A DNA stretch of 34,007 nucleotides from Oscillochloris sp. ZM17-4 (GTDB taxonomy: Bacteria; Chloroflexota; Chloroflexia; Chloroflexales; Chloroflexaceae). The stretch is taken from assembly GCF_019599295.1 (NCBI RefSeq), contig NZ_JAIEWN010000045.1:14346-48352 (forward strand). The letters are read 5' to 3'. This document shows positions 5,055-30,384 of this stretch, piece by piece (the first letter of the stretch is position 1; the number at the start of each line of letters is the position of its first letter). Under the pieces are notes generated by a model that worked only from the letters and a program-made list of their open reading frames with translations, was not told the DNA's origin and ran no database searches. Both the position numbers and the translations under genes were made by a program.

Positions 5055-6083
5055 ATGTCCAATGCCCTCGCCCGAACCCATCCAATGGAAGACGCTGATC
5101 TCGCTCCGGTCGAACGTGACCCGCTCGCCCTGGCCATCGCCGCCTGGCTCGATAGTAAGCACGGCAAGAGCGGCAGCGCCCGCACCCGCGAGGCGTACGC
5201 CACCACGCTGGCCGACTTCCGGGCGGCTCTGGGCAAGGTGGATCTGGACCTCGACGCCGAGGGCGCGGCGGTGGCCCTGGTCGCGCAGGCGTGGGCGAAG
5301 TCGAGTCGGCGGGATCGCACGGTCAAGCCGAGCACCGTCGCCCTGCGGCTTGCGATTGTGTCGAGCTTCTACGCCTTCGCCCTGCGCCGGAAGCTGTTGC
5401 GCCTGCCCGAAAACCCGATGGATCTGGTGGAGCGCCCGAAGGTTGAGAGCTACGCCGCAGCGCAGGCCCTCGACACCGCAGCCGTGCGCGCAACCCTCAC
5501 CACGCTGAAGGCTGAGGCCGCCGGCGACGGCATGGCGGGCGACCTGGCCGCCCGCGACCTGGCCCTGCTGCGCGTGGCGCTGACGACGGGCCGGCGAGTC
5601 GCCGAGCTGGCCGGGCTGCGCGGGCGCGACCTGGCGATCACCGGCGAGCGGGTGACGATCACCGTGCAGCGGGCCAAAGGCGGCAAGGTGATGCGCGACC
5701 GCCTGGCCGCCGACGTGGCCGCCGACCTGCTGCGCTGGCTGCGCCGCCACCACGGGGCCGAGCTGGGAGACTTGGCGACCGACGCCGCAATCTGGCCGGT
5801 GCTCAAGGGCGGCGGGGTCGCGGGCCGGGGCCGCATCGGCGCGGCCCTCACCGCCCAAGGCATCGCCGAGGTGGTCGCCCGCCGGCTGAATACCCACCCC
5901 CACGCGCTGCGCCACTCGTTCGCGCAGGCGATGGAGCGGGCGGGGGCCACGGTGAGCACGATCCAGGCCCGCCTCGGCCACAGTAACCTTGCCACCACCG
6001 GGCGCTACCTCACCCAGCTGAGCCGGGCCGAGAATGTCCACGCCGATGCGCTGGCGCGGGTCTTTGGGACGGGGGAGGAGTAG
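5055..6083 (+). CDS. Tyrosine recombinase/integrase (XerC/D-like)
   Basis: This 342-residue protein has a SAM-like N-terminal DNA-binding domain (about 22-125) and a full catalytic domain. Catalytic residues seen are Arg181 in TGRRVAEL, Lys211 in AKGGK, His283/Arg286 in HALRH, His309 in LGH and Tyr318 in TTGRYL. It catalyses site-specific strand exchange. GGGAG lies 6 bases before ATG 5055. It follows the F420-type gene closely. Its stop is only about 17 bases from the point where CHAT copy 2 loses homology to copy 1, so the integrase module replaced the CHAT 3' end. No attachment-site pair was identified. It could be a housekeeping-type Xer or a mobile-element integrase; the context favours the latter. 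Confidence 0.88.
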   Translation: MSNALARTHPMEDADLAPVERDPLALAIAAWLDSKHGKSGSARTREAYATTLADFRAALGKVDLDLDAEGAAVALVAQAWAKSSRRDRTVKPSTVALRLAIVSSFYAFALRRKLLRLPENPMDLVERPKVESYAAAQALDTAAVRATLTTLKAEAAGDGMAGDLAARDLALLRVALTTGRRVAELAGLRGRDLAITGERVTITVQRAKGGKVMRDRLAADVAADLLRWLRRHHGAELGDLATDAAIWPVLKGGGVAGRGRIGAALTAQGIAEVVARRLNTHPHALRHSFAQAMERAGATVSTIQARLGHSNLATTGRYLTQLSRAENVHADALARVFGTGEE

Positions 6084-6901
6084 CCGTGAGCGACACAGGC
6101 GATCAGCACCGCCAACAGCGGCGGTCGGTCGAGCTGCGCGATCATCTGGCTCAGCGCGCTGCCCTTGACGTGGGCGGTCTTGCCCGCATCATCCTCCAGC
6201 CAGAGGTTCGTATCGTCGCCGGTGTGCTGGCCGTGGCAGATCAGGCAGAGGATCGTCGGTTGTGAACGGAGGGCATCCTGGATCGCGCCCAGGGTAGCCC
6301 TTCGGTGCAGCGCCCCCTCCACGTTGCCGACGACCATGAGCGCGATGTCGCCCAGGGCCGCACGCACGCGGCCCACCTCGCCATCCACGTCGATCTCGGC
6401 CATCCTGTACGTACTCAGATCGCTCGGGCTAGCGACGACCAGCAGGGCGCGCAGGGCGGGCTTCGTCCCCAGCGTGATCGGTCGCGTATCCGGGCTATCG
6501 GGGTAGCGCACGAGGCGGAGGCGGGCGTCGGTTGCCAGCGGCACCTGCGTCAGCGGATCGCGCAGGGTCTCCCAGCGCAGGGCGTGGAGATCGCCAACGG
6601 TTGCGGCGAGGCGAAGACGCACACATAGGGGGAGGTTCGCGCCATCGGCGACCCGCCGTGCATCGCGCCAGGCGTCACGTAGCCGCTGGTCAGCAAAGAG
6701 TTGCTCGGTGAGCCTACTCCCATACGTATCGGGGTCGAGGGCCAGCGCCAGGAGCGCGGTTGGGTCAAGGGCAACCGGAACATCTGTCGCAGGCACGCTG
6801 GGCGCTTGGTTCCCTGGTTGCTCAATGCGGGCATCGGCGACGTAGTGATCGCCTGACAGGCGGATGGTGAGTTCGAGATCGATGGCTTCGGTATCGCGCA
6901 T
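6005..6901 (-). pseudogene. CHAT-domain protein, copy 2, truncated at the integrase junction
   Basis: From ATG 6901 (AGGGA 6 bases upstream) the protein follows copy 1 without indels through residue 267, including the histidine motif CLICHGQ. It then reads LIACVAHG, which may retain the catalytic cysteine. Below about position 6084 the reading frame runs antisense through the last codons of the integrase gene and stops at 6005. The last roughly 27 residues are therefore not CHAT sequence, and everything after the active-site cysteine is missing. The first 270 residues are well conserved, so the truncation is recent or the fragment is still used. It diverges from the membrane-protein/dual-protease pair. 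Confidence 0.75.
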
Positions 6902-6960
6902 CACCGATCCCTGGCATGGGCGAGCCGCCCGGCGGAGTGTGCAGAAATCTGATCACTTGC

Positions 6961-6989
6961 ATGATACATGCACAGGCATAAACTGTATA
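6961..6989 (-). promoter_or_regulatory. Candidate promoter of CHAT copy 2
   Basis: On the minus strand TATACA (6989-6984) and TATCAT (6966-6961) are separated by exactly 17 bases. They match the -35 consensus at 4 of 6 and the -10 at 5 of 6 positions. The element is conserved in position upstream of CHAT copy 1. Confidence 0.45.
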
Positions 6990-7035
6990 GCACACACGCT
7001 GTCAAATCGGATTGCAGCCCCAGCAATCTGATCGC

Positions 7036-13322: not shown

Positions 13323-14981
13323 TTAGAAGCCCATGCCGCCCATGCCGCCCATGCCATCCATCCCACCGCCGGACATGTCCGGCGCCGGGCTCGCCTCGGG
13401 CAGGTCGGCGATCAGGGCCTCGGTGGTCAGCAGCAGCCCGGCGATCGAGACCGCGTTCTGCACCGCCGAGCGGGTCACCTTCACCGGGTCGACCACGCCC
13501 TGCTCGAGCATGCTGCCATACGCGCCGGTCAGCACGTTGTAGCCGGAGGTGGGGTCGCCGCTCGACTCCTGGTTGCGGCGCACCGTGTCGATGATCACCG
13601 AACCCTCCTCGCCGGCGTTGCGGGCCAGCTGGCGCATCGGCTCCTCCAGCGCCCGCCGCAGGATCTCCACCCCGAAGCGCTCGTCAGCGTTGCAGGTCTC
13701 CACCTGATCGAGGGCTGGGATGACATTGATCAGGGCCACGCCGCCGCCCGGCACGATGCCCTCCTCCACGGCGGCCCGCGCCGTCGAGAGCGCGTCCTCC
13801 ACGCGGTGCATCTTCTCCTTCAGCTCGGGCTCGGTGGCCGCGCCAACCTTGAGGATGGCCACGCCGCCGGCCAGCTTCGCCACGCGCTCCTGCAGCTTCT
13901 CGCGGTCGAAGTCGCTGGTGGTCGCCTCGATCTGGGCGCGCAGCTGCGCGACGCGGGCCGCGATCGCCTCCGGATTGCCGCGGCCCTCGACGAAGGTGGT
14001 GCTGTCCTTGTCGGCGAGCACGCGGCGCGCCCGGCCCATGTCCTCGACCGTCGCGCTGTCGAGCTTGCGGCCGATCTCCTCGGTGATCAGCGTGCCGCCG
14101 GTCAGGATGGCCATATCCTGGAGCATCGCCTTGCGGCGATCGCCAAAGCCCGGCGCCTTGATCGCCAGCACGTTCATGGTGCCGCGCAGCTTGTTGATCA
14201 CCAGGGTGGCCAGGGCCTCGCCGTCCACATCCTCGGCGATGATCACGATGTTCTTGCTGACCTGCAACACTTTCTCGAGCACCGGCAGGATGTCCTGGAT
14301 GCTGCCGATCTTCTTGTCGGTGATCAGGATGTAGGGGTCGTCGAGCTCGGTCTCCATCCGCTCGGCGTTGGTCACAAAGTAGGCGGAGAGATAGCCGCGA
14401 TCGATCTGCATGCCCTCGGTGTACTCGGTCTCGAAGGCGATGCCCTTGCTCTCCTCGACGGTGATCACGCCATCCTTGCCGACCTTCTCCATCACATCGG
14501 CGATCAGCTCGCCGATGGCGACATCGCCCGCCGAGATGCCGGCCACATGGGCGATGTCGGCGCGGTCGCGCACCGGCTTGGACAGGCGCTTCAGATCAGC
14601 CACAATCGCCGCGGCGCCCTTGTCGAGGCCGTGCTTGATCTGCATGGGGTTGGCCCCGGCGGCGACGATCCGCAGGCCCTCGGCGACGATCGCCTGGGCC
14701 AGCACCGTGGCGGTGGTGGTGCCGTCACCGACCACATCGTTGGTCTTGGTGGCGACCTCGACCAGCAGCCGGGCGCCCATGTTCTCGAAGGGGTCCTTGA
14801 GCGAGATCTCTTTGGCGACGGTGACACCGTCGTGGGTGACCGTCGGCGTGCCGTAGGCCTTGCTGATCGCGACGTTGCGCCCGCGCGGGCCGAGCGTGGT
14901 CTTGACCGCGTCGGACACGATATCGACGCCGCGCTTGAGCGCGTGGCGCGCCTCTTCGTGGAATAGGATCTGCTTCGGCAT
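13323..14981 (-). CDS. groEL: Chaperonin GroEL (60 kDa, Hsp60)
   Basis: The 552-residue product has full family length. It begins [18 protein letters not shown] at ATG 14981. ATP-binding motifs [11 protein letters not shown] and [16 protein letters not shown] are present, as is the apical-domain segment. It ends in the Met/Gly-rich tail MGGMGGMGF. It forms the double-ring cage that folds proteins with GroES. GAGAGGA lies about 12 bases upstream, a slightly long spacing. groES lies 104 bases upstream on the same strand, with a repeat-rich hairpin region between. No CIRCE operator was found near the operon. Confidence 0.98.
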
Positions 14982-15010: not shown

Positions 15011-15087
15011 AGAATTGAGAATTGAGCATTGAGCATTGAGAGTTGAGCGATGCCCAATTTTCAATTTTCAATTTTCAATGCTCAATT
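15011..15087 (-). repeat. ATTGAG-repeat hairpin in the groES-groEL intergenic region
   Basis: The region holds several ATTGAG units (about 15014-15045) and, on the same strand, several CAATTTT units (15054-15079). AATTGAGCATTGA (15020-15032) pairs perfectly with TCAATGCTCAATT (15075-15087), and the repeats allow alternative registers. The far arm overlaps the end of groES. In the mRNA it would form a stem-loop between groES and groEL. It may set the relative expression or stability of the two cistrons. Confidence 0.75.
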
Positions 15088-15391
15088 ACTCCTGAATGAT
15101 GCCCAGGATATCCTTCTCAGACAGGATCAGGTACTCGACATCGTCCACCCGGTACTCGGTGCCGCCGTACTTGGCGAAGAGCACCGTTTCGCCGACCCTG
15201 ACCTGCATCGGCACGCGCTTGCCGCTGTCGTCCAGGCGCCCCGCGCCGACGGCCAGGATGCGCCCTTCCATCGAACGCTCCTTGCTGGCAGTGTCGGGCA
15301 GAAAGATGCCGCCCTTGGTCTGCGCCTCGCGCTCTGCCGGCTTGACCACGACGCGGTCTGACAGGGGCTGAATACGGACGTCGGTTGCCAT
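15086..15391 (-). CDS. groES: Co-chaperonin GroES (10 kDa)
   Basis: This is a 101-residue protein from ATG 15391, preceded by a strong AAGGAGG. It has the family hallmarks: IQPLSDRVVVKPAERE at the N-terminus, the mobile-loop region EAQTKGGIFLPDTA, EGRILAVGAG, and the C-terminal GTEYRVDDVEYLILSEKDIL. It caps GroEL rings. Only one base separates its start from the stop of the small membrane ORF upstream, so they are probably translationally coupled. Confidence 0.97.
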   Translation of the reverse strand: MATDVRIQPLSDRVVVKPAEREAQTKGGIFLPDTASKERSMEGRILAVGAGRLDDSGKRVPMQVRVGETVLFAKYGGTEYRVDDVEYLILSEKDILGIIQE

Positions 15392-15392
15392 A

Positions 15393-15746
15393 TCACATTC
15401 CTCCTTGAGGATAGGGTAGGAAGCGGTTGTGCGCGCTCCCAATGCGCCATTGAGGGGAGCCATCGGCGCGGCCCAACCCGTCAATGACGATAATGCTCGG
15501 CCTGGCGCGGATGTCACGCGTTGCGGCACGCACGGTCTGACTCTGAAACAATCCGGTGCGCCGCGCACGGATCACGCCCGCCGGGCGCGCCCACAGCGCC
15601 ATGCCGGCCAGGGTTTCGCCGATGGTGATCAGGTACACGCTCAACCCGATGATCGCCCACAGCGGCACCAGGCGCACCCCAGCGAACAGGAGCCGCGCCA
15701 TCGGGAGCGGGAGCGTAGCAGACGTTGGGGGTATGGAGATCTGCAT
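15393..15746 (-). CDS. Small hypothetical membrane protein upstream of groES
   Basis: The 117-codon frame starts at ATG 15746, with GGAAGG 9 bases upstream. Residues 17-50 are hydrophobic (ARLLFAGVRLVPLWAIIG, then SVYLITIGETLAGMALW) and could span the membrane once or twice. The rest is basic and of low complexity. The stop lies one base before the groES start, and the last codons form the groES ribosome-binding site. I do not recognise a family. It might be a degraded remnant of a larger membrane protein whose frame stayed open. Confidence 0.45.
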   Translation of the reverse strand: MQISIPPTSATLPLPMARLLFAGVRLVPLWAIIGLSVYLITIGETLAGMALWARPAGVIRARRTGLFQSQTVRAATRDIRARPSIIVIDGLGRADGSPQWRIGSAHNRFLPYPQGGM

Positions 15747-15824: not shown

Positions 15825-16316
15825 TCACCCAGACCCTGCGGCGAGCGCCTGGGTGAGCCCAGCACCCGTATCGGCAGCATAGCCTCCTTCGCTACGCCAG
15901 GAGATCTGGCCGCTGCGATCGACGAGCAGGATGGTGATGGTCTCGGGGCTGCGGATCTGGAGCGCCGCGATAACGTTTGTCACATGGGTGTAGACGGTCA
16001 GCGTACGCTCGCGCACCGCCGGGCTGGGGATTGCGGCGGCCATCCCGCCGTCAATGAAGGGGCGCACAAGGCTGTAGCCGCTGGCGAGCATGGGCACCTC
16101 GTAGGCGCGCAGGTCGGGGTGGGTGGCCAGCAGCGGGTCGAGGGCGGGAAACCACGAGTCAACCAGCTGCTGGTGTGCACGGCGAAAGGCGACGATGACC
16201 ACATTACGCGCGCCGGCAAACGCCGCAGGCAGCGCGAGCGTGCGCCCGTTCAGGTTTCGCGCCTGGAGCGGTGGGAAGACGGCAGCTAGCGATAGGACTG
16301 GCAAAGAAGCCGCCAT
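15825..16316 (-). CDS. ATP10/redoxin-like thioredoxin-fold protein
   Basis: ATG 16316 is preferred over the start at 16331 because GAGGAG lies 7 bases upstream; the product is 163 residues. The pattern LNGRTLALPAAFAGARNVVIVAF, DSWFPALDPLL, then YEVPMLASG and a late ILLVDRSGQISWRSEGGYA matches the thioredoxin-like ATP10 family, which lacks a CxxC active site. In eukaryotes ATP10 assists ATP-synthase assembly; the bacterial role is unclear. It has no clear signal peptide. It lies between the zinc-ribbon protein and the small membrane ORF in the chaperone operon. Confidence 0.65.
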   Translation of the reverse strand: MAASLPVLSLAAVFPPLQARNLNGRTLALPAAFAGARNVVIVAFRRAHQQLVDSWFPALDPLLATHPDLRAYEVPMLASGYSLVRPFIDGGMAAAIPSPAVRERTLTVYTHVTNVIAALQIRSPETITILLVDRSGQISWRSEGGYAADTGAGLTQALAAGSG

Positions 16317-16364: not shown

Positions 16365-16826
16365 CTAGCGTAGGCTCGCCCCGACGGTGCGGCTGCGCAG
16401 CACCATGCGGTCTTCCCGGCTTGATTGGTGCATGGGTTGACTGACGCATGGGCCAAGGTCGATGATCTGGACGTACAGATCGCGGCCCACGCTCGCAAGC
16501 TCTGCGGCAAACGACAGCTCGTCGCGCAGCACGTGGACGATGGCGTCGAGCGGAAGTGTGCTTGTGCGGGCCTGCGCGACGAGATCGCTCAGCTGTGTGC
16601 TGAGCGCATCCAGGGTCATCTCGGGCGCGGGGTAGCGTGCCGCCAACGGGTTGAAGAGCTGACAGATTGGGCACGTGACGCCGGCCACGCCCGTGCCGGG
16701 CAGCTTCAGCGGCGTGCCGCAGTTCGCGCAGCCGAGATCGCTGGTGGCGGCGGTATCGGTCACCATGGAGACGTTACGGTTGAGCGTGCCACGGGTCTCT
16801 TCATGGAATACGATCTGCTTTAGCAT
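16365..16826 (-). CDS. Zinc-ribbon protein with a GroEL-like N-terminus
   Basis: The 153-residue product begins MLKQIVFHEETRGTLNRNVS, closely matching GroEL of this window ([20 protein letters not shown]). The resemblance lasts about 27 residues and is also visible in the DNA. An LSD1-type zinc ribbon follows, CX2C-X15-CX2C at Cys33, 36, 52 and 55 (CANCGTPLKLPGTGVAGVTC). The remaining helical region (about 60-130) is unassigned. A ribosome-binding site AAAGGAG lies about 12 bases upstream of ATG 16826. It is the first gene of the run ending in groES-groEL. The N-terminus may allow interaction with the GroEL ring or may be a fusion leftover; function is unknown. Confidence 0.7.
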   Translation of the reverse strand: MLKQIVFHEETRGTLNRNVSMVTDTAATSDLGCANCGTPLKLPGTGVAGVTCPICQLFNPLAARYPAPEMTLDALSTQLSDLVAQARTSTLPLDAIVHVLRDELSFAAELASVGRDLYVQIIDLGPCVSQPMHQSSREDRMVLRSRTVGASLR

Positions 16827-16890
16827 ATATGGTATTATCTCCTTTCTGTACGCCGTTAGGCGACGGGCAAGGGCATAGATGCACTACGGT

Positions 16891-16941
16891 CATGGATGAG
16901 TCTAGCAGGCCCGCGCCCAGCCGGTATGAAGTCTGCTCATC
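16891..16941 (-). repeat. 47-bp GATGAG...CTCATC repeat, copy A
   Basis: GATGAG (16895-16900) and CTCATC (16936-16941) bound a 47-base unit with a GC-rich centre (GCAGGCCCGCGCCC). Copy B at 32739-32785 has identical length and matches at about 41 of 47 positions. A diverged copy C is at 23858-23905. In all three the CTCATCA end supplies the stop codon of a minus-strand frame. Confidence 0.75.
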
Positions 16942-17230
16942 ACACGCTCTCGGTTGGGAGATCAGGGGCAGCGCCGGGGAGGCGCACTAGCCGCACCAGC
17001 TGCACGGCCAGCCCAACGATCTCCGCGACGTGCATCTGTGCGCCGGGGATGCTCACCGTGTCGCCGACCTGGGCCGGCCGACCCAGCAGCGTCACCACGA
17101 GGCCGCCGACCGTCTCGACCTCGGCGAGGAGCGCCGCGGGGAGCGCGAGATCAGTCAGCGCGCGCAGGTCAGCGAGCTGCACATCCCCGCGGATCTGCAG
17201 CTCGCCCGGCGCCACCTCGCGCACGCGGCC
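16940..17230 (-). pseudogene. C-terminal domain remnant of a CorC/HlyC-type transporter protein
   Basis: On the minus strand this 96-codon stretch reads REVAPGELQIRGDVQLADLR, then LPAALLAEVETVGGLVVTLLG and VGDTVSIPGAQMHVAEIVG. This is the transporter-associated domain at the end of CorC/HlyC (CNNM-like) proteins. The membrane and CBS domains are absent. Upstream of 17230 the frame runs antisense through the PRC-barrel gene and means nothing. The sequence switches exactly from this fragment to PRC-barrel sequence on the other strand near 17230. Confidence 0.75.
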
Positions 17231-17734
17231 TACTATAACTACTACCCATACTGGTACGGGCCGGGGCTGTGGGGCGGCATGGGCATGCCCTACTATGGCG
17301 GCGGGATCGCCGACTATGCCAACGGAGGCATACTGTCCACCGAGCGCGAGCAGATCCGCCAGGCCGCGATCAACCAGCCAGCGGGCGACGCCCACCTGCG
17401 CAGCACGCACGAGGTGAGCGGCTACCACATCCGCGCGACGGACGGCGAGATCGGCCACATCAACGACTTCATCATGGACGACGCGACCTGGGCGATCCGC
17501 TACGTGGTGGTGGACACGCACAACTGGTGGCCCGGCAAGCAGGTGCTGGTGGCCCCCACCTGGATCACCGCCGTGAACTGGGACGAGCGGACGGTGGATG
17601 TCGCGATCACCCGCGAGACGATCAAGGGCGGGCCGGAGTATGACCCGGCGCAGCTGAACCGCGACTATGAGCGGCGGCTCTACCGCCACTACCGGCAGCC
17701 ATCCTACTGGGACGAGGCTCCCACGAAGCGTTAG
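17231..17734 (+). pseudogene. PRC-barrel protein lacking its first PRC domain
   Basis: The readable sequence starts at YYNYYPYWYGPGLWGG and continues into one clear PRC-barrel domain (HEVSGYHIRATDGEIGHIND, then WAIRYVVVDTHNWWPGKQVL) and the usual tail ending in YWDEAP. Relatives have two PRC domains before and after the Tyr/Gly-rich linker; here the first is missing. ATG 17279 could still start a 151-residue product, but no good ribosome-binding site precedes it. The missing 5' part is replaced by the antisense CorC tail. Such proteins are stress-associated and of unclear function. Confidence 0.75.
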
Positions 17735-19417: not shown

Positions 19418-19505
19418 GACCTGCGCCTAGCGATGCCCTCACCCGATGTGGCCTGCATCGGTCGCCCCTGCTCGTAGTCTGTGACGGGTAGTTCTGCAGC
19501 GTTGG

Positions 19506-20360
19506 TCATGGCGCGAACGCATAGGCGATGCTGGTGATGCGGCCGCGCCAGTAGGGCCACGGCCCTGCCGGGAGCATCCACGCCACCTCGCCCGCGATCG
19601 GGACGCGCATCCCGTCGCGCAGCTCGTAGCGGCTCCAGCGGCCCTCCCACGGGGTTGGCACGCTCACGCCGTCGATCAGCGCCCCGCGCGCCTCGGCGCG
19701 CAGCGAGTCAATCAGGCCGTCGGCGTTGAAGCGGAAGAGTAGCGTCACCGTGGTATCGCCGTCCTGCATGGTTGCTCTGGCCGAGCTGTCGTCGACCGCC
19801 TCCCAGGTCACACCCTGGCTGGGCAGCAGCGCCGTCGGATACCAAGCGGCCTCGGCAAACCAGCGCAGCAGCTCGCCCTGGGCCATCTCGGGCGTGCCGC
19901 GCTGATCCGCCACCATCACCAGGCCGAACAGCGACGCGTGCAGCATGCCCTCGCCGCCGATATAGGCGTCGTGGACGCGCGCCGGCATGCCGGGCATGAT
20001 CGCGATGCGCGCCTCCCAGTCGAAGCCCGGCCGCTGGGTAACAACGCGCTGAGTCGAGCGGAACGGCTTCCACTGCGCATCCGTTAGGCTCATGGTGAAG
20101 GTGCCGGTGTGCTCCAGCGTGACCGCCGCGACCATCGGCTGGCCGTCGGTCAGGGCGGCGCGGAAGTAGCGCTGCACCGGCGCCGGCAGGCCGACCAGCT
20201 CATCCGCGCGGTAGCGATTCGGCGCGATGGGGCGACGTGCCCCCTCCAGATCGGCGTGCATCTGGTCGGTCTCGGCTTGCCAGCGGTTCGACCCGTAGGC
20301 GAGGGCGGCGGCAATGGTAGCCGCCAGCCCGAGGGTGAGCCAACGCACGTTCTTCCACAT
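19506..20360 (-). CDS. DUF6544/DUF6920-family protein, membrane-anchored
   Basis: ATG 20360 is chosen because GAGG lies 6 bases upstream; a TTG at 20387 is unlikely. The 284-residue protein begins with an N-terminal membrane segment (WLTLGLAATIAAALAYGS). A large domain follows with LPAPVQRYFRAAL, the GTFTMS strand, WEARIAIMPGMPARVHDAYI, GELLRWFAEAAWYPTALLP and a final WPYWRGRITSIAYAF. This pattern is typical of the DUF6544 (DUF6920) family as I recall it. The beta-rich shape suggests an exported lipid-binding-like fold. No function is established. Confidence 0.75.
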   Translation of the reverse strand: MWKNVRWLTLGLAATIAAALAYGSNRWQAETDQMHADLEGARRPIAPNRYRADELVGLPAPVQRYFRAALTDGQPMVAAVTLEHTGTFTMSLTDAQWKPFRSTQRVVTQRPGFDWEARIAIMPGMPARVHDAYIGGEGMLHASLFGLVMVADQRGTPEMAQGELLRWFAEAAWYPTALLPSQGVTWEAVDDSSARATMQDGDTTVTLLFRFNADGLIDSLRAEARGALIDGVSVPTPWEGRWSRYELRDGMRVPIAGEVAWMLPAGPWPYWRGRITSIAYAFAP

Positions 20361-20383
20361 GGTGATCCTCTTCAATAGCTGGT

Positions 20384-20500
20384 TCAATTGAGTGCTCTTG
20401 CGACCTGCTCATCTGCGCGGATCATTGGCGCATCGTCTTTGTGGCGCATGATGTATAGCCCGTACCACATGAACATGAGGCAGATCGTGCCGACCACATT
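20384..20500 (-). pseudogene. C-terminal remnant of a CPBP-type membrane protease
   Basis: About 38 codons on the minus strand read VVGTICLMFMWYGLYIMRHK and end in a stop at 20386-20384. The nearby intact CPBP gene at 21614 ends similarly (ALTCMFMWYGLYLMWQK). No catalytic motif remains. It is squeezed between two minus-strand genes and overlaps the last codon of the upstream one. It shows that a further CPBP gene once stood here. Confidence 0.6.
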
Positions 20501-21415
20501 TCAGGTATGTGCCGGCTGCAATGCTGGTGCCTGCACTTGCGCTGAATCCGAGATGGTGCGCAGCAGCACAGTGGTGACCACAACCGCAGCCAGCGCGAGC
20601 AGGCTGAACCCGGCGATTGGCCCGACTATCTGGCCGGTGCTGAATGTCACCCCCGCTATCATCTGGCTGATTGTCTGTGCTGCAATCATTGGTGCAAGCA
20701 GCATCTCAAGCACAAGCAGGGAACAGGCGATCAGGTAGCCTAGCGGCGCGCGGCGCAGAATCAAGACGCCTGCGATGATCGTGGCCGGCGTAATGATGCC
20801 CAGATCGAGCGCGTCGGTGACCATAGTGGTTGAGCTGCCCAGGAGCTCGGGCGGCTGGCCCTGAAACAGCGCGCTGAGCAGCGGGGCAAGCCAGATCAGC
20901 AGCGTCACCAGCCCGCTCGCGAACATAAACAGCGCCGGGCCGCGACGCGGCAGGCTGGGCAAGAAGTGCGCCTGAAGCGCCGAGAGATCGATCGAGGCAT
21001 ATATCAGGACAACGGCAAACAGACTGGCTGAGAAGAGTACGACATAGACCAAGAACAGGTCGTTGTAGGCGGCGTTGAGCGCCAGCGAGGCATACACATA
21101 TAAGAAGTACACCAGTGTGCCCACCAGCAGCAAGCCCCAGCGGAGCGAACCACGCCGGTAGCGCCGTGTCGCCATAATCAGCAGCGGGATGCCGAGCGCG
21201 AGCGTGACCGCATCCGTCCCACGGTTGCCGGCGCCCATGAAGCGCGTGTCAAAGCGGTACAATCCCTGCCCGTACATCGTCACAGTCTGGCCCCGCAGCG
21301 TCGTGACGGTGAACGGGCTACCTCCAGCTTGCCAGAACAGCCCGGCACCGGCCGCAATCAATGCCAGCGCCGCAATCAGCGCCGCCAGCCCGATGATGAT
21401 AGATGATGGTTTCAT
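20501..21415 (-). CDS. Polytopic membrane protein, unknown function
   Basis: The 304-residue product starts at ATG 21415 with GGAG 8 bases upstream. About eight hydrophobic segments can be counted, beginning with IIIGLAALIAALALIAAGAG and ending with a long pair near 250-290. An extracytoplasmic stretch (about 32-65) follows the first helix. There are no charged catalytic motifs and I do not recognise the family. It lies in a run of minus-strand membrane-protein genes. Between it and the next gene (21416-21613) only short frames are seen; one resembles the end of a small membrane protein but cannot be assigned. Confidence 0.75.
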   Translation of the reverse strand: MKPSSIIIGLAALIAALALIAAGAGLFWQAGGSPFTVTTLRGQTVTMYGQGLYRFDTRFMGAGNRGTDAVTLALGIPLLIMATRRYRRGSLRWGLLLVGTLVYFLYVYASLALNAAYNDLFLVYVVLFSASLFAVVLIYASIDLSALQAHFLPSLPRRGPALFMFASGLVTLLIWLAPLLSALFQGQPPELLGSSTTMVTDALDLGIITPATIIAGVLILRRAPLGYLIACSLLVLEMLLAPMIAAQTISQMIAGVTFSTGQIVGPIAGFSLLALAAVVVTTVLLRTISDSAQVQAPALQPAHT

Positions 21416-21613
21416 CCGATTTCTCCACAGGCATTGCGCCTACGCCGCCAACGTTCGACCCACCTGCCAGCTCGCCACTCCGCCGGCGATCACATGCCCG
21501 AGAGCGCGGCGATAGCCAACCAGAACGGCTGGCGGTAGCACAGGAGGTGTCTGCGGCTCATAGGTTATGTTTATCCTTCGGGATCGATATATGAGAGCCG
21601 CTTCGTGCCAGCC

Positions 21614-22396
21614 CTACCCGATTCCATCTTGCCAAGCACGAGATTGCGCCGCAGACTCGTTTGGAAGGTCAGCAGTACAATCCATCGGCACAGCGTCTTT
21701 CTGCCACATGAGGTACAGCCCATACCACATAAACATACATGTGAGTGCGATGCCAGCGATGGTATTCCAGACCGCTGGAAAATCATCCCTTCCAATAAAG
21801 CTGGTGAAGTCGATCAGCGTATGGGCGATGACCAGCGGCCACAGGATGCCTTTCTTGAGCACCACTGCGGCAAAGGCAAAGCCAACGGCCAGGGCATAGG
21901 CGATTTGTATCAAGATAGCGGCACCACTCTTGCCGGAAAGCAGATTCAGCGAATGCGACAGCCCAAACAGGAGCGCGGTGATGATGGCCGCCTGCCAGAG
22001 TCCGCGTGCCTTCAGCGCGTTGAGCATCAGCCCGCGAAAGATCGCCTCTTCGGCGAAACCGATCAGGAACGCAAGGGCAAGCAATTCCATGAATAGAAAC
22101 AGGCTCGGTATGCTCAGCCCGACGCCGAGGTTGAGCAGGACGGGGATCAGGGGGGGCAGAAAAAAGAGCAGGTCGCGGGGGTGCGCGGGTCGCCTGAAGC
22201 CGACAGCCCGCCACCATCCCAGTGCGCTGATCGCGCCGATGACCAGCACGCTCAGGGTCGTAGTGGCCATGCCAGTGATGGCCTGATTGGAGAGCTGCGC
22301 GACCGATGCGATCGTGCCGGCGATCAGGTACACGGCAATGACGATGATCTCCAGGATTGCCACGAACCAGTACGGGTGGCGTTCGATAAAGCGCAT
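21614..22396 (-). CDS. CPBP-family intramembrane metalloprotease
   Basis: From ATG 22396 the product is 260 residues; an in-frame ATG at 22420 is an alternative, and neither has a strong ribosome-binding site. It carries the three CPBP motifs: EEAIFRG, FGLSHSLN and IAHTLIDF. Together with about seven hydrophobic segments they form the Rce1/Abi-type glutamate/histidine protease. Family members process prenylated or leader peptides, or protect against bacteriocins. At least four CPBP genes or fragments lie within 9 kb, suggesting local duplication and decay. Confidence 0.85.
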   Translation of the reverse strand: MRFIERHPYWFVAILEIIVIAVYLIAGTIASVAQLSNQAITGMATTTLSVLVIGAISALGWWRAVGFRRPAHPRDLLFFLPPLIPVLLNLGVGLSIPSLFLFMELLALAFLIGFAEEAIFRGLMLNALKARGLWQAAIITALLFGLSHSLNLLSGKSGAAILIQIAYALAVGFAFAAVVLKKGILWPLVIAHTLIDFTSFIGRDDFPAVWNTIAGIALTCMFMWYGLYLMWQKDAVPMDCTADLPNESAAQSRAWQDGIG

Positions 22397-22520
22397 GGTG
22401 TGAGGACCCTTTTCGACCATCAGATGCCAGATTACCACGGTAGCAACGGTGCTACACCGGCCACAACCGATGACGGCGCACCTTCTGGTGCTGCCGTTAT
22501 TGGCGGTCGGACGATACCGG

Positions 22521-23789
22521 CTACGGGGTCGGCGCGAGGGCCGGCGGTGCCAGCGCCTGGGCCGCAGGTTTGCTAGCGCCACCGGCGCGGCGGGCTACGA
22601 TCAGCGCGCCGAGGGCCAGCACAAAGCTCGCCAGCGAGACCAGCCAGCCCACATAGGGGATGCGCCCGAGTAGGACCAGCAGTAGCACGCCGCCGACCAG
22701 CGCCGCCAGATCGTTTGCCTCACGGCCATTCGCCGTGGCCAGCAGACGCCCGAGCCAGAGGCCGGTGATCAGCGGGCTGAGGAACCAGAGCATCGCCAGG
22801 ATGCCGAACAGCGCCAGCCCCAGCACCACCCCCGGGAACCAGCCCCAGAACAGCACCATGATGAACACCAGCAGGGCCGATGCCACGGGCACGAAGATGA
22901 ACAGGAGTGCGGCGAGCAGCCCGTACAGCCCGGCCCGGCCCGGCTGGGCGGCCAGGGCGCTGGCCGGGCCAGTCAGCAGGCGCGGCGACAGGCGCAGGGT
23001 CAGCCAGGCCAGCAGCGCAAAGCCCGCGAGCACGAGCGCTGTGCGAAGCAGCGACCCGAGCACTGCGGCAAGCGGGTCGGGGCGCTGCGCTGGCGTCGGT
23101 GGCGTGTACTGCACCGTGGACGCGATCGCTTCGAGGGCGGGATCTGGCTCCGGGCTGGTGTAGCGCAGGGCGCCGGAGATGTGCGCGCTGTCCGCCACGC
23201 GGATCGCGTTGGTCGCAATCTCCGCATTTCCGCCCACCTGGGCCGCAAGCGTCGCCGTGCCCATGCCTAGCCACAGATTCCTGACGATCGTGCCGTCAAT
23301 GTTCCCGGCACCAGCGCCAAGCACCGCATCGCCGCCAACCCGTGCGCTCGCGGCCAGACGAATGCCTTCGGTCAGCGGCTGAGCGCCTGCGGCAAATGAG
23401 CTCATGCTCATGGTGTTGCCGCCCCCGCCGGCGATCAGATCCTCGCCGATCGTCCCCGCGACGGCGATCTCGGCGCCCGCCGCGCGCATGTCGCCATCGA
23501 CCCGCCCGTTCATCTGGATGCTCGCGCCGGCCAGCAGCGCGTCGCCCGTGACCGTGCCATTGATCACAATGGTCCTGCCACCGGCGATCAGATCGCCATC
23601 GACCGTGCCATCAATATAGATCTCCGACGCCGCGATGTAGAGGTCATCGCTGACCACCTGGCCCGCGGGGAGCCGGTAGACATCCGTGCCCGCGAACGCC
23701 GCCGCCCGAGCGGTCTGGGTGACGGTCACGCTCAGCACGATGCCGAGCGCCACGGCCAGCCAGAAGCGCACCTGTGTGAATCGACTCAT
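22521..23789 (-). CDS. Exported polymer-forming (bactofilin-like) protein with C-terminal membrane domain
   Basis: The 422-residue product begins with a signal sequence (VRFWLAVALGIVLSVTVTQT, cleavage near ARA-AA). Residues about 35-215 are short beta-helix-like repeats such as YIDGTVDGDLIAGGRTIVIN and GDALLAGASIQMNGRVDGD, as in bactofilin/polymer-forming proteins. After a proline-rich linker, four or five membrane segments follow (about 245-405). Relatives in many bacteria have this layout and unknown function; a surface or envelope-structuring role is inferred. It is upstream of the CPBP gene on the same strand. Confidence 0.82.
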   Translation of the reverse strand: MSRFTQVRFWLAVALGIVLSVTVTQTARAAAFAGTDVYRLPAGQVVSDDLYIAASEIYIDGTVDGDLIAGGRTIVINGTVTGDALLAGASIQMNGRVDGDMRAAGAEIAVAGTIGEDLIAGGGGNTMSMSSFAAGAQPLTEGIRLAASARVGGDAVLGAGAGNIDGTIVRNLWLGMGTATLAAQVGGNAEIATNAIRVADSAHISGALRYTSPEPDPALEAIASTVQYTPPTPAQRPDPLAAVLGSLLRTALVLAGFALLAWLTLRLSPRLLTGPASALAAQPGRAGLYGLLAALLFIFVPVASALLVFIMVLFWGWFPGVVLGLALFGILAMLWFLSPLITGLWLGRLLATANGREANDLAALVGGVLLLVLLGRIPYVGWLVSLASFVLALGALIVARRAGGASKPAAQALAPPALAPTP

Positions 23790-23857
23790 ATGCTCCCTCT
23801 CACGATGATTACTCGTCGTCGATCACCCGTTCCGGAACGCCAGTACACGAGATCGTA

Positions 23858-23905
23858 GATTCAGTCTAGCGCGTGCGGTTCTTGGTGCGATGAAGATCGC
23901 TCATC
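23858..23905 (-). repeat. GATGAG...CTCATC repeat, diverged copy C
   Basis: This stretch shares TCTAGC and GATGAAG..CGCTCATC with copies A and B, in the same order and at nearly the same spacing, but its centre has diverged. It again supplies the stop codon of a minus-strand gene and lies directly 3' of it. Confidence 0.5.
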
Positions 23906-24644
23906 ACGCGCGCTCAGCGGATTGCGGTGCCGTGCCCAGCGCGAGCGCGCGCCGCAGGCTCGGCTGGAAGCTCAGGAGCACAATCAGCAGCCCCAGGCCG
24001 CCATACACGAACTGCAGCCAGTCCGTCCCGCGCATCATCAGCATCTCCGTGACGATCCAGATCACCTGACCCAGGCCGATGGCGACCGCCGCGCTCCACG
24101 CCCAGTGCGCGCCGGTGAAGCGCGTCAGCGCCGTGCCGAGTGGCCAGGCTGGGCGGAACCAGAGCGCCAGCAGCGTGGCGAACGAACCGATGCCAAAGAC
24201 GATCCCGAGCAGCAGGCCGGGGATCAGGAAGTCGCGAAACGGGGAGAACTGGAGGATGCTGAGGGGGATCTGCAGCCAGGTGCCGGTCGGGTTGAGCGTG
24301 AGCACGATCCCGCCGAAGGCGGCGCTCAGGCCGAGAAAGGCGAGGCAGCCAAGTAGCCAGCGCAGGCTGACCGGTCGCGCAGGCGATCCCGTTTGCGGCG
24401 ATGGTTCATCGACGGGACGCCGCCACATTTCGTATACCGCGCCGGCCAGCATGCCAATGCAAGCGCCAGCGATCATCCCGAGCAGCATAGCGCCGAACAG
24501 GAGCCCGACGACCATGCCGAGCCCGGCTCCAATGCCGAGCCCGGCTCCAATGCCGATGCCTCCCCCGACTCTGGTGTTGCGCAAGCGAGCTGCCGTTTCA
24601 TCCGCAGCGCCCGCCGCCTCGATGTGGCCGTGGTCCTGATTCAT
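23904..24644 (-). CDS. Membrane protein with glycine-zipper N-terminal region
   Basis: The 246-residue product starts at ATG 24644. Residues 25-70 form a glycine-rich membrane hairpin (GGGIGIGAGLGIGAGLG) encoded partly by an 18-bp tandem duplication. After a proline-rich loop, four to five more hydrophobic segments follow (about 95-230). No family is recognised. The start overlaps the stop of the CPBP fragment (ATGA-type overlap), which suggests an older operon with that gene. The conserved repeat copy C lies at its 3' end. Confidence 0.7.
   Translation of the reverse strand: MNQDHGHIEAAGAADETAARLRNTRVGGGIGIGAGLGIGAGLGMVVGLLFGAMLLGMIAGACIGMLAGAVYEMWRRPVDEPSPQTGSPARPVSLRWLLGCLAFLGLSAAFGGIVLTLNPTGTWLQIPLSILQFSPFRDFLIPGLLLGIVFGIGSFATLLALWFRPAWPLGTALTRFTGAHWAWSAAVAIGLGQVIWIVTEMLMMRGTDWLQFVYGGLGLLIVLLSFQPSLRRALALGTAPQSAERA
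24520..24555 (-). repeat. 18-bp tandem duplication encoding GAGLGI units
   Basis: CCGAGCCCGGCTCCAATG occurs twice in direct succession on the plus strand around 24520-24555. It encodes two identical six-residue glycine-zipper units in the minus-strand gene. Perfect identity suggests recent slippage. Confidence 0.8.
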
Positions 24645-24945
24645 CGTGTTCCCTCTCCGCTAGCATTCACTACCACTGCCGGTGCCATCGTGTCCTCGGG
24701 CGGTCGCATACGCCACATGCGGTCCGTGATGATCAGCGTCAGCGTCATGATCGCCATGGCGGCGTATACGCCCAGCGTGACCGGTAGCCAGAAGCCGCCG
24801 CTGTTGTTGACGGCGGTGTGCAGCAGCACGACCAGCCAGAGATTGCCCTTGGTGCGGTTGAAGCACCAGGTGAACAGCACCGTGGTCGGAACCGTGGTGA
24901 CGATGCGCAGCAGAATGCCGGGCAGTCCGTCGGGAAAGATGCGGT
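24641..24945 (-). pseudogene. C-terminal fragment of a CPBP protease, duplicate of 28352-28657
   Basis: From IFPDGLPGILLRIVTTVPTT to the third CPBP motif LLHTAVNNS and the final helix, this fragment is nearly identical to the end of the CPBP gene at 28352. The first two motifs are absent. Upstream of 24945 the frame is unrelated. It lies immediately 3' of the interrupted CPBP gene. It is the remainder of a tandem duplicate. Confidence 0.85.
24705..24942. repeat. 238-bp direct repeat, copy 1 of 2
   Basis: It matches 28413-28650 base by base at an offset of 3708, with about nine mismatches and no gaps seen. The two copies flank the interrupted CPBP gene with its IS and MITE. Confidence 0.85.
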
Positions 24946-25474
24946 GCGCGACGCTCGCGTTTCTTGGTTGACGGCTAGCGCTGATCAACTGATCAGGCTA
25001 ACCGTAAACGCGAAGCGCACCGCATCAATACAGAAATGATAGGCGAGCGCGGATTCGTAGTCGCGCTTGATATAGATAAGCCCCAATGGGATGCCATACA
25101 TCAGGGGGATAAAAGAGGGGTGCGCTAAACATAAGGTGAGCGAGTCCGGGGCGCGCTAAACATAAGGTGTGGGATCGGGGCGGTGGGGGCGGGATCGGCG
25201 AGCGAGGGGCGATCATCGCGGGGCAGATCGGGGCGGCGGGCAGCGTGGCGGCAGGTGGGCGGGCGTGGGCGGCGGGCGGCGACGGGCCGCACCGGCGCTG
25301 CGTTCGCTGTTGGACGCAGGGAGTCATGCCCCGGCGCCAAGGGTGAGTCGGCCCAGGTCGGGGTCAGGTCACTCGGTTGTCGTCAGCGGACGTCGCATCC
25401 GTGTCCCCCTGGCTGCCCACCACCACCACCACCGCGCGAATCAGCCGGGGGTCACGGGCGTCGCCCGCCGCAGC

Positions 25475-26983
25475 TTAGCTCTGGGTCAGCTGCCCCTCCT
25501 CAGCGGCAGCGGCGGCGCGCACGCGCAGGAGCGCACGCACATTAATAAGGAGGTAGCGCAGGGTGTTCGCGTTGACGATCGCCTGGCCCCGCCGCAGCTT
25601 CGGGTGCAGGATGTCGAGCGCCTCGGCCTGGCTGTTGATCCGCTCGACCATCGTGCGCAGGGCGTAGAGTTGCTTATAGTCGTCGCCCTCGCGGTCGAGC
25701 TCGTGGCGGATGCGCGCACCCTTGGTGTTGGCGATCGTCGTGCTGCAGCCGCCCTTGGCGAAATGCGGGTCGGCGCAGGGGCACGGCTCGCCGGTCACGC
25801 GCGGCTGGAGCAGCGGGCAGGTGTACTTGGCCCGCTCGTGCGGCTCCAGGCCGCTGGTGCGGTCCATGTAGGTGAACTGGAGGTGCATCGGCAGGCTGGC
25901 CGCGCACAACGGGGTTCCGTCCGGGGCGAAGGTGCGCTTGGCCCGCTTCGGCCCGCCGGGGTTGAATGGCACGGCGGCGACGCCGCCGGCCTGGTCGAAG
26001 TAGTCGTAGACGTAGTGGGCGTCGAAGGCGGCGTCCCAGGTGCCGAAGCGCGGCCGGCGGCCGAGACGGGCCTCGACCTGAGCCATCAGCGGGCGGAAGT
26101 GGCTGGGGTCGGACTCATTGAAGGGCCGGGTGCGCTCGGCCAGCACCACCTCGGTGCCATCGGGCAGGCGGGTAACGACGATGCCGCTGGCGTAGCCCCA
26201 GAAGATGTCCACGCCGACCTGCAGCTTGGACGCGGGCTTGGCATCGGTGGTCGGGGCGGGGTGGTCGGGGCTGGCCTCCTCGGCGGGGGCGGCGTTGCGG
26301 CGCTTCTTGACGCCAAGCTTGCAGTCGGGGTCGCCAACGGGCTGGCGGGTCTTATCGAGCCGGCCCTCTTTGATGAACTGCTTCGGGTTGTTCTCCTTGA
26401 CCCAGGCGAGGATGGCCTGGGTGTCACCGGCGATGATGTCCCCAAACGTGGCCTGCTGGTCGGGCGGGAGGGTCGCCTTAAGCAGATCGATGCTGGCCGA
26501 GAGCAGGAACTGGAGGGCGGGGTTGGGGAGGTGGCGCAGGACGCTGCTGAGCTGGCGGCGATTGGGGACGCTGGCGGCCACGTCGAAGCCGTGGGGCGCG
26601 GCCGGGTCGGGGACGCGGGCGAAGCCCAGCCAATAGACCAGGGCCGGGTGCTCGATCAGGTAGGTGCGCAGGTCGCTCATGAAGCGCTTGTCCTCCTGGA
26701 GCTTGACGAGGTAGGCGGCGGCGAAGGAGACGCGCGGCTGGGGGTGGGGGCCGGGCCAGGGATGGTCGGTCGGGCGCTCGGGGAACTGATCCCAGGGCAG
26801 GGCGCCGAGCAGGGCGCGGTACTTCTGGACGACGGGGTCGGTCTCGACCCAAGCCGGGAGCGGAGCGGCGGGATGAATGAGCGGGCAGGGGTCATCGGGC
26901 GACGAGGCGACAGGCGGACAGGCCGGCGCGGGCCGCAGGTTGGCGACGAGCCGGTTGATGATTTGGCGAAACGGGACTACCAT
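25475..26983 (-). CDS. DDE-type transposase
   Basis: The 502-residue protein starts at ATG 26983 with GGAG 7 bases upstream. Candidate catalytic carboxylates lie in IIAGDTQAILAW, in TWDAAFDAHYVYDYF and in the C-terminal MVERINSQAEALDILHPKL, the last being typical of IS4/IS1182-like DDE enzymes. A cysteine cluster (CPLLQP, then CPCADPHFAKGGC) precedes the last block. It catalyses cut-and-paste movement of the surrounding element. The reading frame is undamaged and the terminal repeats are perfect, so the element may be active. A hairpin masks the ribosome-binding site. Confidence 0.85.
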   Translation of the reverse strand: MVVPFRQIINRLVANLRPAPACPPVASSPDDPCPLIHPAAPLPAWVETDPVVQKYRALLGALPWDQFPERPTDHPWPGPHPQPRVSFAAAYLVKLQEDKRFMSDLRTYLIEHPALVYWLGFARVPDPAAPHGFDVAASVPNRRQLSSVLRHLPNPALQFLLSASIDLLKATLPPDQQATFGDIIAGDTQAILAWVKENNPKQFIKEGRLDKTRQPVGDPDCKLGVKKRRNAAPAEEASPDHPAPTTDAKPASKLQVGVDIFWGYASGIVVTRLPDGTEVVLAERTRPFNESDPSHFRPLMAQVEARLGRRPRFGTWDAAFDAHYVYDYFDQAGGVAAVPFNPGGPKRAKRTFAPDGTPLCAASLPMHLQFTYMDRTSGLEPHERAKYTCPLLQPRVTGEPCPCADPHFAKGGCSTTIANTKGARIRHELDREGDDYKQLYALRTMVERINSQAEALDILHPKLRRGQAIVNANTLRYLLINVRALLRVRAAAAAEEGQLTQS

Positions 26984-26986
26984 GAG

Positions 26987-27047
26987 GGTACTCCAGATCG
27001 CGGTGGCGTGGTGTGTCGTAACTCAATGCTACCGCATCTGGAGTACC
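26987..27047 (-). promoter_or_regulatory. Hairpin masking the transposase ribosome-binding site
   Basis: In the transposase mRNA, bases 27047-27031 (GGTACTCCAGATGCGGT) pair with 27004-26987, with one bulged base and a 26-base loop. The second arm contains the GGAG that lies 7 bases before the start codon. Transcripts reading in from outside the IS would fold this way and block initiation. This is a known way for insertion sequences to avoid activation by neighbouring promoters. Confidence 0.7.
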
Positions 27048-27897
27048 TTAGGCAACGACGGGGGATCGGGAACCGCCATCGCCCGCCCGAGAACCGCCGT
27101 CGCCGACCGACGGCCATTGCGGGCCGAGCGACGCCAATCCTATGTCAAGGAGCGCCCGGCGGCGATCTGCCGTCGCCCCGAACCGAACCGCCGTCGCTGG
27201 GCGACGCGAATCTTATGTTTAGCGCACCCCTCATAAAAAGGATAAACAGTGGATTCGATAGGGATTGCGGATAATGGGCCAATACGTGGATGCATACCGA
27301 GATCATCAACGCCGCCGTGAGCGCGCGCTGTGGTTTCTGGCGGCTTGTGGGGCGCAACACTGCATAGAAAAGGGTCAATAGGAACAATCGCGCCCACGTT
27401 TCCTCCAAGAGGGCCGGTTGCAGTGCATACACGGCTTTCCACCAGTGATCAAATCGGCGATCCGAATCGGTCAGGAGGCTGCTCGTCAGCGACGCGATAT
27501 TGAACAATGCGGGCGGCAACGCCATCACGCATCCCCAGCAGAGACTCTGGAACGCGTTGCGAATCTGTCCATCGTACAGCCGAATGCTGGTGAGCCGTGT
27601 ATGGGTGAGCAGGACCACGCCCGCCATCGCCTGAAAGGCAATCAGGAGCGCATTGATGATCGCTCCTTGTGCGTTCGTGGGCTGCATGATGCGTTCGACC
27701 AAGAACAGTGCCGCAAACACACTGATCCCGGCGAGCACGACCTTCCGGTTCATGTGTTTGCGCAGAACAATCAGCATGACAATGGCCAGCAGCGTGCTCA
27801 GCGGAACCATCAGCCAGCCGTTACCCAGGATCACACCTGCCACGACAAACACGAACCCAGCGAGCGTGCTGACGAACGCCACCATGACCCAATACGA

Positions 27898-28016
27898 TTA
27901 GGACTTACGCAGTTGAAAATCGAAAACCGCTTTGCAAAGCCTTAAACCACGATTCTGCCTGCTGAGCGGGCATGGCTTCCAGTTGCGGTAAACCGTTTCA
28001 ACTGCGTAAGTCCTAA
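27898..28016. mobile_element. 119-bp MITE with 21-bp terminal inverted repeats
   Basis: TTAGGACTTACGCAGTTGAA with one more A (27898-27918) is perfectly complementary to 27996-28016. CGA flanks both sides (27895-27897 and 28017-28019), consistent with a 3-bp (or 4-bp) target duplication. It has no coding capacity and was probably moved in trans by a transposase not in this window. It shifts the frame of the CPBP gene. Its repeats are unrelated to those of the neighbouring IS. Confidence 0.85.
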
Positions 28017-28351
28017 CGATGTGAAGACGCTCACGATCGGCGAAAAATCTGGCAAGGCATCCGCCGTAGGTCGGCTGCGTGCGAGCCACCAGATCAGCAC
28101 CATGGTGTACGCTAGCGCAAACAGTGTTCCCACACCCTTGAGATTGTCGATCTTCAGGATCAGCCCCATCCCAATCAAAATGACTGCGACGGCACCGACC
28201 ACGACCAGTGTTGCGGTCGGGTAATCGGTGCGCGCACGTTGGTTCGGTGCTGGTTCAAGATGGTGTTCCACATGCCGTCCTTATGCACTACGGGATGTTC
28301 ACGTGCGTATTCGCGCATCGGTTAGGCCACCGCGTTCATCGTCATCGCCCT

Positions 28352-29422
28352 TCAGTGGTCATCCAATGCCTCAACCCGCCCCTCCGCCGGCACTGTCGTG
28401 CCCTCGGACGACCGCATACGCCACATGCGGTCCGTGATGATCAGCGCCACCGTCATGATGGCCATCGCCGCGTATACGCCCAGCGTGACCGGTAGCCAGA
28501 AGCCGGCGCTGTTGTTGACGGCGGTGTGCAGCAGCACGACCAGCCAGAGATTGCCCTTGGTGCGGTTGAAGCACCAGGTGAACAGCACCGTGGTTGGAAC
28601 CGTGGTGACGATGCGCAGCAGGATGCCGGGCAGGCCGTCGGGAAAGATGCCGTGGTAGACGCCCTGGAGGTGCAGCGGCGCGTGCCAGAGGCCCCAGACC
28701 ACGCTCAGCAGCAGGCTGGCCACCAGCGGGCTGTGCCGCGCCTGGAGGCGTGGCAGGGCAAACCCGCGCCAACCGACCTCTTCGCCGAGCGGCCCGCCGT
28801 AGAGCAGCGTCGCCATGAAGGTCGTCACCAGCAGCGGCAGCAGCGCGCGCACCGGCTCGGCGCGGGGGAAGGGCGGCAGCGGCTGCCCCAGCAGCGTCAT
28901 CAGGGCGATCCCGGCCGCGCTGATGATCACCGGCAGCAGCAGCGCCGCGCCGTACCAGATCGGCGGCACCCGCCAGGCAGTGAGGGTGTGCAGGAGCGCG
29001 CGGACGCCAAGCCGGCGGCTGAAGCTGCTCCACACGACCCAGGCCGGCAGCAGGGTGATGGCCAGCCACAGCAGCGCCGCCACCAGTGGGCGGGGGCTGC
29101 CGAGCGGGTTCGACGCGATCATGAGGTTCAGCCACACGGTGCCCGCCAGTACCCCGCCTGCTAGCCAGAGCCGGCGTCGGGGCGAGGCCACCGCCTGCCG
29201 CTCTGGGCGCAGCAGCCCCGCGAGGGCCATGGCCGCCAGCGTGGGGCCGTAGGCGGCGATGATGCCGAGCCAGCGGGCGCTGATCGGATCGGCGCCGGCA
29301 AGCAAGCCCTGGAGTCCCCAGAGGCTCCAGGAGATCGCGTAGGTCAGGCCGACGAAGGCCAGCAGCGGGTGCCGCTGAGCCAGCCCGCGCAGCTGCGGTG
29401 CGATCGTTGCGACGGCGCTCAC
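28352..29422 (-). CDS. CPBP-family intramembrane metalloprotease
   Basis: The 356-residue product starts at GTG 29422, whose bases overlap the stop of the GIN-domain lipoprotein gene by four (GTGA), indicating translational coupling. The CPBP motifs are intact: GPLGEEVGWRGF, VWGLWHAPLH and LLHTAVNNS. About eight membrane segments are visible. The sequence from residue 257 on is duplicated at 24641-24945. The substrate is unknown; coupling to a surface lipoprotein suggests an envelope-related role. Confidence 0.9.
   Translation of the reverse strand: MSAVATIAPQLRGLAQRHPLLAFVGLTYAISWSLWGLQGLLAGADPISARWLGIIAAYGPTLAAMALAGLLRPERQAVASPRRRLWLAGGVLAGTVWLNLMIASNPLGSPRPLVAALLWLAITLLPAWVVWSSFSRRLGVRALLHTLTAWRVPPIWYGAALLLPVIISAAGIALMTLLGQPLPPFPRAEPVRALLPLLVTTFMATLLYGGPLGEEVGWRGFALPRLQARHSPLVASLLLSVVWGLWHAPLHLQGVYHGIFPDGLPGILLRIVTTVPTTVLFTWCFNRTKGNLWLVVLLHTAVNNSAGFWLPVTLGVYAAMAIMTVALIITDRMWRMRSSEGTTVPAEGRVEALDDH
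28413..28650. repeat. 238-bp direct repeat, copy 2 of 2
   Basis: This is the partner of 24705-24942 and lies inside the intact CPBP gene at 28352-29422. Recombination between the copies would delete 3.7 kb, including the IS and most of the interrupted gene. Confidence 0.85.
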
Positions 29423-30096: not shown

Positions 30097-30141
30097 GCAA
30101 GCCTCATCTTCCCTTGTATGCGTAAACACCGGGCGCCCTGC

Positions 30142-30384
30142 TCAGGATGGGCGATCCTCCTGGCGCTCATCGTGGTTCGCGGTATCGCTGCGTTTGCGCT
30201 TCTGATCGAGGCTCGCACCAATCGCCGCGCCAACGCCAACGCCTATCGCGAGCCCGATAGCAAGATTGTTCAACGCAACACCAAGAGCAAGCCCAAGCAT
30301 CATTCCGATGGCAATGCCTACGCTCATCTGGCTCTCTTTCGCGGGGCGGCGCTGCGATTCCTGGTCCTTCGATTCCTGGCCCAT
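30142..30384 (-). CDS. Small glycine-zipper membrane protein
   Basis: ATG 30384 (GAGGAG 10 bases upstream) or ATG 30402 starts an 80- or 86-residue protein. A charged N-terminus (MGQESKDQESQRR) is followed by a glycine-zipper membrane region (VGIAIGMMLGLALGVALNNL and AIGLAIGVGVGAAIGASL) and a basic tail. It resembles other small glycine-zipper proteins and the N-terminus of the 23904 gene. The role is unknown. It lies between the hydrolase and lipoprotein genes on the same strand. Confidence 0.7.
   Translation of the reverse strand: MGQESKDQESQRRPAKESQMSVGIAIGMMLGLALGVALNNLAIGLAIGVGVGAAIGASLDQKRKRSDTANHDERQEDRPS

Follow-up and report, generated by a model that had tools for sequence, protein, structure and literature searches.

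A GroEL-like start joined in frame to a displaced zinc-ribbon gene at the front of a groESL run in Oscillochloris sp. ZM17-4

The window (the whole 34,007-nucleotide stretch analysed), from a green filamentous bacterium of the Chloroflexales, contained, on its minus strand, a chimeric gene (16826 to 16365; ATG start, 153-aa open reading frame) composed of a GroEL-derived head and a zinc-ribbon body, and this gene appeared to be a singular chimera, lying in an island that has undergone rearrangement, rather than a purpose-built chaperonin partner. The reading that we consider probable is the capture of a start: a groEL start plus a stress-type promoter would now drive a displaced copy of a small zinc-ribbon gene, with the head having no selected docking role.

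The fused gene was composed of (i) the head, codons 1–27 (16746–16826; MLKQIVFHEETRGTLNRNVSMVTDTAA), (ii) the zinc ligands C33-x2-C36 … C52-x2-C55 (16662–16730), and (iii) a conserved helical part of the body with a QIIDLGP motif (16452–16613), recognized from the family alignment and from a structure model with helices at residues 72–88 and 93–111; all of these were read on the minus strand. A Shine-Dalgarno-like AGGAG (16839–16843, minus strand) was located 12 nt before the ATG, and the plus-strand frame across 16365–16826 was interrupted by stops. The fused gene was followed on the same strand, with gaps of no more than 105 nt, by a gene for a redoxin-like protein (15825–16316; weak ATP10 match in Pfam; relatives in 23/158 Chloroflexia genomes), a 117-aa open reading frame that had a hydrophobic segment and ended 1 nt before groES (15393–15746; no match in Pfam), groES (15086–15391; Cpn10, E 4e-31), and groEL (13323–14981; Cpn60, E 4e-77), the last of these being the second groEL of the host genome and the likely donor type of the head. 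The earlier note had described a GroEL start grafted onto a zinc ribbon as the leading gene of a groESL run, and both the fusion and its leading place were borne out. The five genes are likely to be co-transcribed, as far as gene order and spacing can tell; the coding strand of the run had one weak terminator-like site, no more than expected by chance, and an Rfam search of 12–20 kb returned nothing. A conserved redoxin–groESL operon was considered and rejected, because the pairing was absent from the other redoxin loci examined.

The match of the first 27 residues to GroEL of the same run, likewise asserted in the earlier note, was confirmed by sequence comparison: the head aligned without gaps to the window groEL, both from their start codons, with 14/27 identical amino acids and 55/81 identical nucleotides (68%, previously put by eye at about 70%). 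The anchored BLOSUM62 score was 63, whereas shuffles averaged −21 (sd 10) and none of 200,000 reached 63; over codons 2–27, 52/78 nucleotides were identical, compared to a codon-shuffled mean of 23.9 and a maximum of 42. Of 45 groEL starts sampled, that of the window groEL was the only one to share His8 (in FHEE) with the head. No PF00118 (Cpn60) match was found in the fusion by the Pfam search, the GroEL likeness being confined to residues 1–27. The switch point lay at codons 27–29, where the relatives read ..SLRCANCG and the fusion ..SDLGCANCG, and the similarity to GroEL could be followed through codon 28. The exact donor of the head was uncertain, because another groEL reached 67% over the same 81 bases, and the age as well as the donor was uncertain because the head had diverged further than the genome's remaining groEL fragments (see below). 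Three further candidates were dropped: (i) Met21 as the native start, aligned by MAFFT with the native Met of the relatives, was disfavoured, since the GroEL similarity ran to codon 28 and no Shine-Dalgarno sequence preceded Met21; (ii) a leader shared with groEL was abandoned, since by eye no similarity was present between the two regions 5′ of the ATG; and (iii) the head as an old extension of the zinc-ribbon family was rejected, since the N-termini of the relatives were all short or unrelated.

The two parts of the head displayed different degrees of divergence. Residues 1–10 were identical to GroEL at 8/10 positions and kept 5/5 near-invariant GroEL positions (pN 0.08 against the window groEL, from few sites), while residues 11–28 had lost 8/13 such positions, at all eight of which the replacement residue was absent from all 33 distinct groEL starts. 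The dN/dS of codons 11–27 against the window groEL was about 0.80, so that this helix part appeared nearly neutral; residues 1–10 were better conserved than neutrality suggests, and there could be selection on this peptide, although selection for translation acting on the initial codons, or coincidence in a stretch of ten codons, would produce the same pattern. The earlier note had proposed that the protein docks on or regulates the chaperonin. The N-terminal strand of GroEL takes part in ring packing, and in the docking reading MLKQIVFHEE would replace that strand in the equatorial sheet, bring the zinc ribbon with it, and regulate or mark a subpopulation of chaperonins. Its attractions are the location of the fusion in the same operon as groEL and the preservation of all near-invariant positions in residues 1–10; against these have to be set the decay of the adjoining helix, the stray groEL pieces elsewhere in the genome, the prediction of residues 1–27 without confidence in the AlphaFold model (pLDDT <50, itself weak evidence since the alignment held no relatives for the head), and the absence of the fusion from every other genome searched. 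A GroEL head on relatives of the zinc-ribbon protein, near groESL or anywhere else, was found in none of 158 Chloroflexia (class) genomes, none of 400 genomes of the phylum sample, and none of the genome contigs, viral contigs, and plasmids searched; a literature search for groEL chimeras returned nothing relevant. Docking is therefore improbable, and a purpose-built partner went unsupported for want of a second genome and because of the near-neutral helix with its lost positions. Its more specific form, in which the zinc-ribbon protein inserts into or caps the second chaperonin ring with MLKQIVFHEE as a strand-exchange partner, is very improbable. Two observations had been named beforehand as speaking against the earlier proposal, the absence of any other genome with the fusion and a damaged frame: the first was what the searches returned, but the frame and the zinc ligands were intact.

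The body (residues 29–150) was assigned to an uncurated Chloroflexia family characterized by two helices, the QIIDLGP motif, and four zinc cysteines. All four cysteines (C33, C36, C52, and C55), and likewise D123-L124-G125, were invariant in 20 aligned sequences. The nearest relative of the body had E 5e-49, and identity to the copies within the same bacterial family was 52–68%. Relatives of the body were found in Chloroflexia genomes only (class genomes, phylum sample, genome contigs, viral contigs, and plasmids searched), and the family was present in 26/158 Chloroflexia genomes. The relatives all began at about residue 27–32, with either a short native N-terminus or a possible unrelated extension; in the window copy, the short native N-terminus was replaced by the 27 GroEL-like codons. 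A zinc ribbon, as the earlier note had called the body, was upheld by the invariant cysteine pattern, but the label LSD1-like was not, the fusion scoring 13.4 bits for zf-LSD1 (PF06943; cut-off 20.2) and 14.0 for TIGR01053 (cut-off 15.5); matches to other zinc-ribbon profiles were also under their curated cut-offs. A profile search of PDB gave weak zinc-finger matches only, and a fold search with the predicted structure gave nothing significant, just zinc-ribbon knuckles. The zinc-ribbon gene was located directly upstream of a giant glucan-synthase-like gene in all but one of the 17 contigs of relatives that were examined (16/17), and the sole exception was a second copy in G004. The giant product, which combined glycoamylase and GH94 domains and mostly measured 2,000–2,800 aa, was cyclic beta-1,2-glucan synthase-like (NdvB-type), a label that stood on domain make-up in two contigs and on sequence similarity in the remainder. 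This conserved pair of a small zinc-ribbon protein and a giant cyclic beta-1,2-glucan-synthase-like protein recurred across Chloroflexia (e.g., L042, L043, and L052), and its zinc-ribbon member was covered by no curated family.

The host genome kept a normal zinc-ribbon copy on contig C137 beside its glucan-synthase gene. The latter (L039 7381–14891), intact in relatives, was here divided between two frames, with an apparent frameshift at about 12.5 kb of the locus. This makes a curious parallel, and the frameshift may be a sequencing error. The window copy had no glucan-synthase-like (GH94/glycoamylase) gene alongside; since that neighbour was present in 16/17 relative contigs, the window copy was recognized as displaced, a homologue by sequence only. 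In the tree, it was grouped with the copies of G003, G004, and G026 (81/95, modest support) and not with the native copy of its own genome. The two groEL genes were also placed apart: the vertical groEL on contig C143 grouped with the genus, while the window groEL had a long branch and was placed with family f4 (99/96), and was thus probably acquired from outside the family, as far as its placement indicates.

The surroundings were mosaic. Contig C108 of the nearest sequenced relative, G005, matched the window at 5115–6079 (88%) and, in pieces, at 19435–32888 (93–98%), and the intervening 6.1–19.4 kb of the window, with the whole run inside, corresponded to about 360 bases in G005; either loss by G005 or gain by the host genome would account for this. 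The block of about 6.1–19.4 kb comprised the groESL run and genes for a C1-peptidase protein, PRC, phosphatase, and VIT. A CorC_HlyC domain remnant (16982–17218, minus strand; PF03471, E 2e-12) was located just upstream of the fusion, and next came a PRC-barrel domain (17408–17614, plus strand; PF05239, E 2e-4), the 5′ part of whose gene overlapped the remnant; the PRC-barrel gene seemed to be without its own 5′ part. The window also carried two pairs of direct repeats: 1–924 versus 6101–7024 (79% identity, CHAT-domain region) and 24688–24954 versus 28396–28662 (94% identity). Two stray groEL fragments were found elsewhere in the host genome: (i) 119 bp with 96% identity to the window groEL at C97:4965–5111 (L172), fused out of frame downstream of a J-domain, and (ii) 139 bp with 97% identity at C35:13278–13421 (L173), ending at an assembly gap (run of N). 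Because such pieces characterize the host genome, an accidental join was the simplest origin of the head. The position in the operon, which had been taken to strengthen the link to the chaperonin, carried less weight than appears, given the mosaic operon, the absence of the block from the nearest relative, and these fragments.

A chimera of assembly or sequencing would be suggested by the draft state of the genome (182 contigs) and by the run of N closing the C35 fragment. This explanation is extremely improbable: the head was just 68% identical to any groEL seen and cannot consist of misassembled reads of the present groEL, the fusion region was free of assembly gaps, and the pieces matching G005 at 19435–32888 tied the contig to the genus.

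The putative promoter of the fused gene belonged to a repeated set. The operator/promoter motif GATGAGCAGACTTCATACC, an inverted repeat ATGA..TTCAT, was located at 16923–16941 (minus strand), followed at 16899–16904 (minus strand) by TAGACT, a −10-like hexamer found at the same place after the motif in other copies, where a TAGACT-like hexamer came about 18 bases past the motif. Exact copies of this 19-base inverted repeat (GATGANCNNNCTTCATACC) numbered five in the host genome and two in G005; with one mismatch included, there were 6 and 8 copies, respectively, and the reversed control pattern gave 0 in both. A stretch of 50 bp here had 88% identity to other loci. The sites were presented at 16923–16941 and 32767–32785 of the window, at C35:24823, C35:25896, and C97:5532 and 5558 of the host genome, and on C36, C54, C108, and C119 of G005. 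The genes behind the motif were unrelated to one another and encoded a putative DUF3267-like membrane protein (both genomes), a J-domain fragment, and small membrane proteins, and another site lay near an acetate-kinase-like gene. These copies point to a small regulon of the genus; the neighbouring genes suggested, as a guess, the description of the motif as a stress promoter.

The remaining alternative is a silent or decaying by-product of rearrangement, with a frame open by chance and a chimera without function. The rearranged surroundings, the single genome, and the near-neutral head helix would all agree with it, but the frame and zinc ligands were intact, the gene had a good ribosome site and the repeated promoter motif, and the body gave dN/dS 0.18–0.48 against six native copies (0.40 for native versus native), by which estimate it is constrained like the native copies, although the constraint may predate the fusion. 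We regard such a by-product as unlikely, though deserving of some weight. Under the preferred reading, the capture of a groEL start, a second copy of the small zinc-ribbon gene would have lost its own start and, as the variable block that also held the foreign groESL was rearranged, been joined in frame to the first 27–28 codons of a groEL gene. The chimera would now lie behind the repeated stress-type promoter and would probably be co-transcribed with redoxin, groES, and groEL; its body would still make a folded zinc-ribbon/helical protein, presumably keeping the family function, perhaps that of a small regulatory or adaptor protein, and its head would mainly supply a translation start, with no selected role in docking to the chaperonin.

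On this account, the locus would clearly exemplify, in a bacterium, how a gene can take its start from a chaperonin gene, and the donor-type gene, relatives without the fusion, the native copy still kept by the genome, and a genome lacking the block are all to hand. The analysis also revealed an uncurated zinc-ribbon family whose genes accompany those for cyclic-glucan-synthase-like proteins and, within the genus, a small regulon defined by its promoter. Docking, if true, would mean a protein hitching onto the chaperonin via the chaperonin's own packing strand, and strand exchange, if true, a novel type of zinc protein associated with the chaperonin through a borrowed assembly strand.

Compared to the NdvB-linked zinc-ribbon family of Chloroflexia, the fusion shared residues 29–150 with the four cysteines, two helices, and QIIDLGP, but differed by its 27-codon GroEL head and by having no glucan-synthase-like neighbour. 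Compared to GroEL (Cpn60, PF00118), it shared an ungapped stretch of residues 1–27 from the start codon, with His8 in common with the window groEL, but it contained no chaperonin domain after the head and had lost conserved helix positions. The first half of the ribbon was spaced similarly to that of zf-LSD1 (PF06943/TIGR01053), with both scores below the curated cut-offs. Chimeric genes arising by partial duplication have been reviewed for eukaryotes (PMC3449122, PMC3395120); the likeness is that a 5′ piece of one gene is joined to another, which thereby receives a different start and may also come under different regulation. Compared to these eukaryotic chimeras, the present one was found in a bacterium and combined part of a chaperonin gene with a zinc-ribbon copy that had been displaced.
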